Under the pieces are notes generated by a model. That model did no database searches, was not told where the DNA came from, and saw only the letters and a program-made list of their open reading frames with translations. Position numbers and translations under genes: made by a program. From Pontibacter flavimaris (GTDB lineage: Bacteria > Bacteroidota > Bacteroidia > Cytophagales > Hymenobacteraceae), in NCBI RefSeq assembly GCF_001907195.1, contig NZ_LVWA01000007.1, positions 1-64,000 of the forward strand: 64,000 nt of DNA, read 5' to 3'. Shown here piece by piece: positions 1-62,300 of the stretch. Positions within the stretch are counted from its first letter, which is position 1. The number at the start of each line of letters is the position of its first letter.

Positions 1-147
1 TGGTGCTCTCAAGCCCGAGAGGGCTCGTCCTTTGGCATCGCGCTGTGTTCCCTCCTGCGCCAGGGCGCTGCCACTAACGTGGCACCGGATCTCACAAGGC
101 GCTCAACCCAAGGACTGGGATCATTTCGATAGCCGCTGCTGACGAAG
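1..147 (+). repeat. Structured repeat family, copy A (5' part outside window)
   Basis: This is the 3' two-thirds of a repeat present four more times (19121, 33965, 53579, 61750). It shows the hairpin AGCCC-GAGA-GGGCT, the helix GCGCTGTG pairing with CACAAGGCGC, and the inner hairpin GCCAC-TAAC-GTGGC. Compared with copy B, the inner stem has changed on both sides (GCCGC/GCGGC to GCCAC/GTGGC). It precedes the pyrimidine/purine-rich modules at 160-400. Confidence 0.8.
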
Positions 148-19120: not shown

Positions 19121-19347
19121 TAGCCGCCGCTTCCTTCCACTTGACACAAGCTATACTTGCTAGCTACCGTTCATCCTCCAGACTATACTTACCTATCGTT
19201 TCATTTTATACTTTGGTGCTCTCAAGCCCGAGAGGGCTCGTCCTTGGGCATCGCGCTGTGTTCCCTCCTGCGCCAGGGCGCTGCCGCTTGCGCGGCACCG
19301 GATCTCACAAGGCGCTCAACCCAAGGACTGGGATCAAGTTCGATAGC
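19121..19347 (+). repeat. Structured repeat family, copy B (complete)
   Basis: Reference copy. Predicted pairings: hairpin AGCCC (19225-19229)-GAGA-GGGCT (19234-19238); long-range helix TCCTTGGG (19241-19248) with CCCAAGGA (19320-19327); helix GCGCTGTG (19253-19260) with CACA-AG-GCGC (19306-19315); inner hairpin GCCGC-TTGC-GCGGC (19283-19296). The first 90 bp (TAGCCGCCGCTTCC...GACACAAGCTATACTTGCTAGC) are also shared by copies C, D and E. Confidence 0.85.
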
Positions 19348-33964: not shown

Positions 33965-34220
33965 TAGCCGCTGCTTCCCGCTATTTTGAACAAGCTATCC
34001 TTACTAGCAACCGCTGATCCTCTAGTTCCCACAAACCTACAGTTGCATCTCTAGCTTTGGTGCTCTCAAGCCCGAGAGGGCTCCCCGATATGCATCGGGG
34101 TAAACTCTCTCGGGCATCGCGCTGTGTTCCCTCCTGCCTCCGCTGCGCTACGGCTGCCCTTGACGGGCACCGGATCTCACAAGGCGCTCAACCCAAGGAC
34201 TGGGATTATATTCGATAGCC
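33965..34220 (+). repeat. Structured repeat family, copy C (with insertion)
   Basis: Same order of helices as copy B, but after the GNRA hairpin it carries a 29-bp insertion including the hairpin CCCCGAT-ATGC-ATCGGGG. The inner hairpin is TGCCC-TTGAC-GGGCA, different from copies A and B on both sides of the stem. The insertion disrupts most of the long-range CCTTGGG pairing, so this copy may be inactive. Confidence 0.82.
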
Positions 34221-41864: not shown

Positions 41865-42412
41865 ATGAGCAGGAAGTATAAAATCAGGGACCAGCGCAAA
41901 TTATACTTTGTCAGTTTTTCGGTGGTGTACTGGATCGACGTGTTCATCCGGGAGGAGTACAGGCAGGTGCTGCTCGATAGCCTTAGTTACTGCACCCAGC
42001 ATAAAGGGCTGGAAGTATACGCCTACTGCATCATGACCAGCCACATGCACCTGATCATCGGTAGCCAGCAGGAGCCGCTCCAAAACATCCTGCGTGACTT
42101 TAAAAGTTATACTCCACCCAACTCAGAAAAGCCATACAGGATAACCCGCAGGAGAGCCGCAAAGACTGGATGCTCTGGCTTATGCAGCGGGCCGGAAAGA
42201 GGAACGGCAACAACCACGATTATCAGTTCTGGCAGCAGCACAACCACCCCATCGAGCTAAATACAAACTTTCTGCTGCAGCAGAAGCTGGACTACATCCA
42301 CCATAATCCGGTAAAGGCTGGATTTGTCAGCTTCCCAGAGGCGTATACTTACAGCAGCGCCGCTGCCTATGCAGGAGAACCAGGTTTGCTGGATATTATG
42401 CTGATCGAGTAA
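41865..42412 (+). pseudogene. REP-associated tyrosine transposase (RAYT), frameshifted
   Basis: Together the two frames encode a nearly complete Y1/IS200-like RAYT of about 182 residues. Frame 1 (from ATG 41865) reads MSRKYKIRDQRKLYFVSFSVV and has the HUH metal motif with His60 and His62 in TSHMHLII. At about 42113 one base is missing (TATACTCC where TATACTTCC would restore the frame TSTQLRKAIQDNPQ). The second frame continues DNPQESRKDWMLWLMQRAGKRNG and includes the catalytic tyrosine region QKLDYIHHNPVKAGF. REP hairpins flank it on both sides. Either a recent inactivating deletion or a sequencing error. Confidence 0.85.
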
Positions 42413-53578: not shown

Positions 53579-53811
53579 TAGCCACCGCTTCCTTCCACTT
53601 GACACAAGCTATACTTACTAGCTGCCGCTGATCCTGTAGTTCCCACAAATCTACTGTTGCATTTCCTGCTTTGGTGCTCTCAAGCCCGAGAGGGCTCGCC
53701 TTCGGGCATCGCGCTGTGTTCCCTTCCTTTGCTCCTACGTCGCAATGCCCTTTCAGGGCACCGGAATCTCACAAGGCGCTCAACCCAAAGGCTGGGTTCA
53801 GATTCGATAGC
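53579..53811 (+). repeat. Structured repeat family, copy D (complete)
   Basis: Same architecture as copy B. GNRA hairpin AGCCC-GAGA-GGGCT; long-range helix GCCTTCGGG with CCCAAAGGC (or local hairpin GCC-TTCG-GGC with a UUCG loop); helix GCGCTGTG/CACAAGGCGC extended by TTCC/GGAA; inner hairpin TGCCCT-TTC-AGGGCA. The T-A pair at the base of the long-range helix in copy B is G-C here. Confidence 0.85.
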
Positions 53812-61749: not shown

Positions 61750-61988
61750 TAGCCGCTGCTTCCTGTTTTTGACACAGGCTATACTTGCTAGCTGCCGCTG
61801 ATCCTCAGTCTTACGAGCCTACCGTTGCACTTTATACTTTGGCTCCCTCAAGGCCGGGAGGCCTCGCCTTCGGGCATCGCGCTGGGAGCTTTTCCTTTGC
61901 TCCTGACGTCGCAATGCCTCACTGGCGTTCGTCACCGGAAAAACTCGCATAGGCGCTCAACCCAAAGGCTGGGATCAGATTCGATAGC
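61750..61988 (+). repeat. Structured repeat family, copy E (most diverged)
   Basis: The sequence differs most from copy B, but the pairings persist: hairpin AGGCC-GGGA-GGCCT replaces AGCCC-GAGA-GGGCT (both GNRA loops); long-range helix GCCTTCGGG (61866-61874) with CCCAAAGGC (61961-61969); GCGC...GAGCTTTTCC (61879-61895) with GGAAAAACTC...GCGC (61937-61956) replaces GCGCTGTGTTCC/GGATCTCACAAGGCGC. Confidence 0.82.
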
Positions 61989-61996
61989 CGCCGGTT

Positions 61997-62300
61997 TTGT
62001 CATTTCGACCTTCGGGAGAAATCTTATTAGAATTCCGGATAGATCTTTCACTGTGTTCGGGATGTTAGGTAGAAGAAGTAAGTATAAATTCCCCTCCTCA
62101 GAGGGGCAAGGGGTGGTTTTATACTTTGTAGGGACAGGTCGCGACCTGTCCGCGCTGTACCAGCGGCTACAAAGCTTATACCTTGGCAAAAGTAATTACG
62201 GGCTCCCCTCCTTGGACAAGGAGGGGTAGGGGTGGTTGGAACAAGTGCTGCAGAAGCTCCCTCTCCTGTTCTTAAGACAGGGCTGGGCTGGGGTAATCCC
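61997..62300. repeat. Hairpin modules after repeat copy E
   Basis: TTTGTCATTTCGACC repeat half, then the perfect palindrome GGACAGGTCGCGACCTGTCC at 62132-62151, CTCCCCTCCTTGGACAAGGAG and CTCCCTCTCCTGTTCTTAAG-type hairpins. Same order as after copy A. Confidence 0.7.

Follow-up and report, generated by a model that had tools for sequence, protein, structure and literature searches.

What is the repeat that occurs five times in a 64,000-nucleotide stretch of the Pontibacter flavimaris genome (the window, hereafter), and which of its strands, if either, works as a folded molecule? The first-pass annotation, made from the letters alone, proposed that its stems change on both sides while pairing is kept, that GNRA and UUCG loops mark the plus orientation as the RNA, and that the repeat is a family of non-coding RNAs, or else the structured portion of a mobile element. 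All five copies were found at the places given there (Table 1). Comparison across many more copies points to a dispersed structured RNA family on the minus strand, which we consider most likely, with a probability of roughly 0.6, to be a cis-acting folded 3'-end element that is at the same time a non-autonomous, gene-converted repeat.

Copies, fold and covariation

In the P. flavimaris genome as a whole, DNA similarity yielded 217 candidates; the 40 that were scored all proved to be matches. A covariance model of 142 positions (R1) recovered at least 150 copies of the 142-nt core in the same genome, and all 150 scored copies matched; 148 of these matches cover the full model, and the other two cover positions 7-142 at a contig end and positions 41-114 at a contig start. 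Several contigs start or stop within or near a copy, as is expected because repeats break assembly. None of the 147 distinct own-genome copies in the fetched stretches overlaps an open reading frame called by hexamer score. The earlier statement that reading frames across the repeat are not maintained is borne out as well: no frame is common to the copies, and any one of the six runs uninterrupted across the core in only 7-72 of 143 own copies. At one locus (L313), two copies stand in tandem about 150 nt apart. Flank matching for empty sites returned 21 combinations, all from this tandem pair, and no clean empty site. The spacer between comEC and tRNA-Leu occurs in filled versions and in short unfilled ones (L134, L139), which did not look alignable.

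Table 1. Features of the repeat element, and a transposase gene remnant, in the window. Scores refer to the models R1 and R3; arms are named in the sense of the RNA.
Feature	Positions	Strand	Remarks
Copy 1 core	1-132	-	contig's very start; R3 108.1 bits
Copy 2 core	19213-19346	-	R3 124.3 bits
Copy 3 core	34057-34218	-	R3 68.4 bits; 3' of comEC, in sense with comEC
RAYT (Y1_Tnp) gene remnant	41865-42260	+	apparently frameshifted; flanked by short GGCGCAAGCGTCCGCTTGTGCC-like palindromes
Copy 4 core	53671-53810	-	R3 139.0 bits
Copy 5 leader	61750-61838		conserved between copies, without conserved structure of its own; evolves separately from the core
Copy 5 core	61839-61987	- (RNA 61987->61839)	copy named in the first-pass annotation; R3 130.4 bits on -; R1 150.5 bits
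Copy 5, pseudoknot hairpin at RNA 3' end	61845-61864	-	S2 = 61851-61855 with 61860-61864; loop 61856-61858 pairs with 61845-61847 (S1)
Copy 5, P1/P2 3' arm	61866-61875	-	C61871 and C61875 face A61964 and A61960, U·G pairs on the minus strand
Copy 5, P1/P2 5' arm	61960-61969	-	10-bp helix
Copy 5, P3	61879-61882 with 61953-61956	-	GCGC/GCGC, almost invariant
Copy 5, P4	61886-61895 with 61937-61946	-	sequence varies by subfamily, pairing mostly kept
Copy 5, P5 hairpin	61897-61914	-	TTGC/GCAA in copy 5; GCCC/GGGC or GCGC/GCGC elsewhere
Copy 5, P6 hairpin	61915-61934	-	1 of 4 pairs broken in copy 5

The minus strand of the core, about 142 nt, is predicted to form one long arm consisting of P1/P2 (10 bp, conserved G·U pairs included), P3, the variable P4 and the hairpins P5 and P6. 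This arm would be followed by an H-type pseudoknot hairpin, the loop of which pairs with nucleotides just downstream. Among the aligned copies, S2 has the consensus AGSCC/GGSCT. A pairing of the leader with the RNA tail, plausible by eye, found no support in the consensus fold.

Covariation was judged against shuffles and slid partners, and by counting changes under parsimony along a tree. In an alignment fitted to the covariance model (A3, 102 distinct sequences), 93.5% of cells pair and 31 of the 35 pairs have changed on both sides; the 540 double-changed cells compare with 160 after shuffling and at most 86 with slid partners, and none of 500 shuffles reached the observed number. The first MAFFT alignment gave both-sided changes at 22 of 35 pairs (188 cells vs. 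71), and the MAFFT alignment A4, with 83 distinct sequences, at 30 of 39 (344 cells vs. 100); in the latter count the pseudoknot columns are off by one, and counts for S1 are taken from A3. On a tree built from unpaired columns, 195 both-sided Watson-Crick switches were counted for 35 pairs (S1 one column off), vs. 6 to 16 in runs with slid partners, which used 32 pairs. The both-sided stem changes first described for the five window copies thus stand far above the shuffled and slid controls, and they hold in larger alignments of 102 and 83 distinct sequences.

Individual helices illustrate how far the letters have moved. The middle pair of S1 is C-G in 37 sequences of A3, G-C in 33 and U-A in 16, with two others and 13 unpaired. 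For P4, the 63 distinct arm pairs form duplexes with a mean energy of -8.4 kcal/mol, vs. -4.3 kcal/mol when arms are swapped between sequences, and 16% of foreign arms pair equally well or better (both computed on plus-strand letters). At three loci (L163, L101, L220), P2 has passed from GGG/CCC to a CCG/CGG type, several bases changing together on both sides. Within the P. flavimaris genome, 129 of 143 copies have at most two of 24 pairs broken. We read the core as probably being under selection on the fold of one strand, with homogenisation as a possible contributor.

Strand of the fold and its place among genes

A plus-strand RNA, the orientation proposed from the loop motifs, was accepted at first and rejected once conserved C·A oppositions proved to be G·U pairs on the other strand. 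In plus-strand letters, the junction of P1 and P2 is C·A in 63, T-A in 24, C-G in 6 and G-C in 4 of 100 sequences, and the junction of P2 and P3 is C·A in 70, T-A in 12 and C-G in 8 of 101. On the minus strand, standard pairs form at the first junction in 97/100 sequences and at the second in 90/101, whereas the plus strand has 35 and 20; for the own-genome copies the figures are 138/143 and 136/143 vs. 58 and 5. Because C·A on the plus strand is G·U on the minus strand, P1 and P2 join as a single 10-bp helix. The loop motifs themselves dissolve on closer comparison: the supposed UUCG loop is part of a long-range helix arm (GCCTT/AAGGC, GTCCT/AGGAC) and occurs in some variants only, and the GNG pattern of the supposed GNRA loop accompanies pairing to an upstream CNC (S1).

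The overall pair composition agrees with this assignment. In A3, the plus-strand structure holds 0.7% G·U and 1.6% A·C pairs, vs. 6.9% and 0.7% after refolding on the minus strand; refolding of A4 gave 6.2% G·U and 0.8% A·C on the minus strand, vs. 2.9% and 2.3% on the plus strand. For comparison, G·U makes up 9.5% of the pairs in 29 distinct tRNAs from the same loci. The scarcity of G·U in the plus-strand structure is explained by that strand being the wrong one; its candidate interpretation as a sign of DNA-only pairing was rejected as an artefact of drawing the structure on the wrong strand.

Folding energies point in the same direction. The plain consensus energy is -32.5 kcal/mol on the minus strand vs. 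-13.1 kcal/mol on the plus strand for A3, and -24.6 vs. -15.6 for A4; with ribosum scoring the values are -88.7 vs. -81.2 and -80.3 vs. -71.5, the covariation terms of the two strands being about equal (42.6 and 43.5 for A3). Over 143 single own copies, the mean RNA energy is -56.9 on the minus strand vs. -49.4 on the plus strand, a difference of 7.5 of which shuffled letters explain about 3. Two window copies gave folding z-scores of -4.4 and -3.1 on the minus strand, vs. -1.8 and -1.7 on the plus strand. Among private changes that hit a Watson-Crick pair with the partner unchanged, 18 of 44 give G·U on the minus strand, a strand signal (18 vs. 5) that may be partly mutational bias. In addition, the modelled pseudoknot looks sterically easier in the minus direction. 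Taken as comparative sequence evidence, these data establish a structured single strand and its orientation.

The arrangement of neighbouring genes is likewise strand-specific. For 139 copies with genes on both sides, oriented by the plus sense of the repeat, convergent genes flank 67, two minus-strand genes 47, two plus-strand genes 16 and divergent genes 9; 8 further copies lie at edges. The minus-strand RNA is thereby in sense with its upstream gene in 114/139 cases, and tandem spacers divide into 47 sense vs. 16 antisense (p 1e-4). In the window, each of the five copies comes after a minus-strand gene. Since copies usually lie 3' of a same-strand gene, read-through transcription from that gene would place the fold in its 3' untranslated region, where a role in cis could consist of protein binding, 3'-end protection or processing. 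REPs, too, are reported to lie mainly 3' of genes (PMC3733652), and placement alone is therefore no proof of a role in messages. No U-tract was seen in the element copies read and no conserved neighbouring gene of the element was found; thus no single cis role is singled out. Seven relatives carry a copy downstream of comEC, four in the same orientation and three in the opposite one. When comEC was searched against named genomes, Pontibacter came closest, with a best match of 81% to P. anaerobius (the own genome possibly being excluded).

Relatives, known families and candidate mobilisers

The element was found in 36 of 41 Pontibacter genomes, P. flavimaris included, and gave no match in the other five (G005, G009, G014, G028, G327). 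Copy numbers are highly uneven: ten genomes hold at least 78 copies each, and five hold one or two (G002, G010, G011, G016, G033; three in G033 with a laxer search). Since five of the 41 genomes yielded no copy, the element RNA is not required throughout the genus. Beyond it, an order-wide search found 13 of 291 genomes positive: six belong to the genus, four to two other genera in the family (at least 10 or 11 copies per genome) and three to other families (one or two copies). A phylum-wide search with a second model found 5 of 395 positive, P. flavimaris included, one of them outside the order with three copies; these large-scale searches used stricter filters, and absences in them are soft. 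The model R3, trained without any of ten distant loci, recovers all ten at 28-65 bits. According to the ORF lists of these distant loci, the gene that lies upstream of the RNA runs in the same sense as the minus strand in 8/10, and in six of those eight the RNA begins 30-72 nt past the upstream stop codon.

A search of Rfam release 15 (4227 models) down to an E-value of 10 gave no match to the element above chance. The few loose rows all lie far under gathering scores, and the three that overlap distant copies have E-values of 2.6 or more; at curated thresholds, the whole window matched only tRNAs. The element is a candidate structured RNA that lacks an Rfam match. With regard to the original proposal of selection on structure, the folded single strand is strongly supported, and the proposed pair of alternatives, a family of RNAs or a mobile element's structured portion, is supported by the missing Rfam match, the many copies and the species-specific copy numbers; the argument for plus orientation was mistaken, as the wobble pairs, energies and gene context indicate. 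A literature search with a few terms, by title and abstract opening, found no publication on the element.

Several known repeats nevertheless invite comparison. BOX elements and MITE-like units such as ERIC and RU are structured intergenic repeats on the order of 100-200 nt with many copies; compared by description only, the present element differs in its extensive double-sided covariation. Flavo-1 is a multi-copy family, and it and the other Bacteroidota candidates in Rfam differ from the element in that the latter has no match above chance to any Rfam model. Flavo-1 (RF01705) is listed as a probable Bacteroidetes RNA that is not cis-regulatory, and the STAXI motif is described as a pseudoknot-containing repeat for which RNA or single-stranded DNA is debated (PMC2864571). 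STAXI consists of tandem pseudoknots near DNA-handling genes in Enterobacteriales, and its likeness to the element is one of description only. REPs and REPINs with their RAYT genes share with the element a high copy number, a location between genes and mainly downstream of them (PMC3733652) and the lack of a coded protein; the copy number of the element also tracks Y1_Tnp genes, before any correction for shared ancestry. However, a REP or REPIN is a 20-40 bp palindrome, whereas the element has a 142-position multi-helix core (S2, P1-P6 and the pseudoknot S1); unlike REPs, the element was not found beside RAYT genes in the 20 loci fetched or in the window, and it shows strand-specific G·U conservation.

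Of four protein families tested as possible mobilisers, only Y1/RAYT tracks the presence of the element. Across the 41 genomes, 34 have both Y1_Tnp and the element, two (G002 with two copies, G011 with one) have copies and no Y1_Tnp match, none has Y1_Tnp only and five have neither (Fisher p 2.8e-5, with shared ancestry uncorrected). All 30 genomes with at least five copies have Y1_Tnp matches and all five zero-copy genomes lack them; the correlation with copy number is rho 0.73, counts of at least 78 being entered as 78. Shared ancestry may explain this association. No element match was present in 20 fetched RAYT loci (125 kb, about 3 kb per side, one of them single-sided). Twelve RAYT genes, 11 from those loci and the one in the window, were read by eye, and nearly all have other short palindromes in their flanks. 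The RAYT remnant of the window, considered as a mobiliser, adjoins no element copy. The consensus of the 5' flanks of element copies contains palindromes of the GGCGCAAGCGTCCGCTTGTGCC type, too.

The other profiles gave little. TnpB (E<=0.001) had no match in 35 of the 41 genomes, the own one among them, RRXRR (IscB-type) had none in 41 genomes, where its control was silent too, and RVT_1 had none in G006, G012, G017, G020, G030, G324 and G326, each with at least 78 copies. Reverse transcriptase and TnpB do not track element copies.

Evolution of the copies and competing explanations

Private changes were counted at positions on which nine or more of ten neighbours agree. Over 142 copies, their rate per site is 0.0114 in the core, 0.0323 in the tail and 0.0527 in the leader, so that the core changes about 4.6 times more slowly than the leader. 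Over 10,011 copy pairs, the distance between leaders shows no correlation with that between cores (rho 0.03): copies with cores 1-3% apart have leaders that differ by 24%, vs. 26% for any two copies, and only the nine copy pairs with cores less than 1% apart have closer leaders (15%). For the comEC-side copy of the window, identity is 96% with its best own paralog and 70-73% with the same-orientation comEC copies of four relatives. This independence of leader and core, together with the comEC pattern, suggests that cores are exchanged or homogenised within a genome separately from their surroundings, and conversion would fit the uncorrelated distances too. Inside the core, the private-change rate is equal at paired and unpaired columns, and 40 of 48 private changes that hit a pair break it (judged on the plus strand); part of the low core rate may therefore be homogenisation and not selection. 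Neutral decay of all copies, proposed from the equal rates and the pair-breaking changes, was withdrawn, since the core evolves 4-5 times more slowly than the leader beside it and arms stay matched despite partial reassortment. The equal rates and broken pairs still speak against selection on each single copy.

This reassortment is visible in the linkage between segments. The top four of 66 segment pairs are all helix partners (P5 0.88, P4 0.84, S1 0.75, S2 0.72), P1 partners follow in sixth place, with 0.52 over 91 nt, and P2 partners in eighteenth, with 0.34; the arms of P1 and P5, 29 nt apart, have a linkage of 0.05, and adjacent segments that are not partners reach 0.53. Given the rank of P2 and the values among non-partners, exchange of contiguous blocks explains part of the arm matching. 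The comparison of copies thus demonstrates, at the level of sequence, that helix types partly reassort while their arms stay matched, and that the element evolves in a population-like manner. In the subfamily of window copy 3 (also at L272, L273, L275, L278-L280 and L282), a P1 arm is replaced by a hairpin (CCCGATATGCATCGGGG / CCCCGAWATGCWTCGGGG) plus CTCTC, which is able to pair with GAGAG of S2; its presence at several sites implies that it has multiplied. As a separate observation by eye, a sequence of about 21 nt (TTATCGAGGGCCCCTACCCCC and variants) is inserted in element copies, in either orientation, at internal loops or the S2 loop (L270, L271, L274, L276, L277, L281, L283 and others).

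Two accounts compete over what kind of molecule folds. According to the first, the preferred minus-strand RNA, the element would be copied and gene-converted within each genome as a non-autonomous repeat, spread in trans, and carried in the 3' ends of messages; the wobble pairs and the gene context of the sequences speak for RNA rather than single-stranded DNA. According to the other, which we regard as possible but doubtful, the fold belongs to single-stranded DNA, a large REP-like substrate copied in trans by a Y1 (RAYT/HUH) transposase. Tracking of copies by Y1_Tnp (rho 0.73) suits this account, as does placement between convergent and unidirectional genes, which is reported for REPs (PMC3733652), but the 20 RAYT loci contain no element match, the flanks of nearly all 12 RAYT genes read hold other palindromes, G002 and G011 have copies and no Y1_Tnp match in a comparison uncorrected for kinship of the genomes, and G·U, more typical of RNA, is the commonest state at both junctions (63/100, 70/101). 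A further-reaching version of the RNA account, unlikely in our estimate, would have an RNA-level repeat population: a mobile or converting core of about 140 nt would overwrite the cores of established loci, its helices reassorting as cassettes and each copy being kept foldable, to leave about 150 natural variants per genome, perhaps of a new ribozyme or protein-binding 3'-end module, and the spread itself may run via the folded RNA.

The remaining explanations carry little weight. An RNA read from the plus strand, with GNRA and UUCG loops and a role in trans or within a mobile element, is very improbable: its helices exist on both strands, and A4 refolded on the plus strand alone does give 2.9% G·U and 2.3% A·C, but in A3 its G·U (0.7%) falls below A·C (1.6%) and far below the tRNA value of 9.5%, two junctions would keep a C·A mismatch, and it folds with weaker energy. 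Still less probable is covariation without selection, in which template switching between hairpin arms (quasi-palindrome correction) remakes perfect inverted repeats; the scarcity of G·U and A·C intermediates in the plus-strand structure would fit, yet the arms of P1 and P2 covary across 81-91 nt, pseudoknotted pairs covary as well, and two junctions keep wobble in a form that pairs on one strand only. TnpB/IscB and group II intron systems leave ORF-less copies of structured RNA, and the many ORF-less copies seen here would suit a transposon guide-RNA part or an intron remnant. This last origin is the least credible of all, with no TnpB match in 35 of 41 genomes, the own one included, no RRXRR match in 41 (control silent too), reverse transcriptases that do not track copies and no Rfam match above chance at E-values up to 10.

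For the preferred reading, a dispersed minus-strand RNA, about 150 copies per genome offer an unusually rich natural library, in which repeated replacement of helices within a single genome has left the fold intact. With the element one can test directly whether intergenic repeats of high copy number work as RNA at message 3' ends, as single-stranded DNA on which transposases act, or in both ways. More generally, wobble-pair asymmetry can assign the strand of a repeat from its sequence alone.

Further repeated words occur in the spacers around the element and elsewhere in the window. After genes, as in the window at 61988-62300, the flanks are mosaics of other repeats (GACAGGTCGCGACCTGTCC, CCCTCCTTGGGAGGGG, GTCATCTCGACC...GAGATGACA) in recurring order. 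The octamer TTATACTT/AAGTATAA occurs 116 times in the window, vs. about 1.3 expected. In other Pontibacter loci (L134-L178), the top word is TATACCT (CAGGTATA/AGGTATAG) or TATAGTT (AACTATAG), with none in a few; in the loci counted, the heptamer density is 1.6-2.0 per kb in coding sequence vs. 5.5-6.8 per kb between genes. From their letters, these words look like dialects of a DNA-uptake-like or HIP-like sequence.
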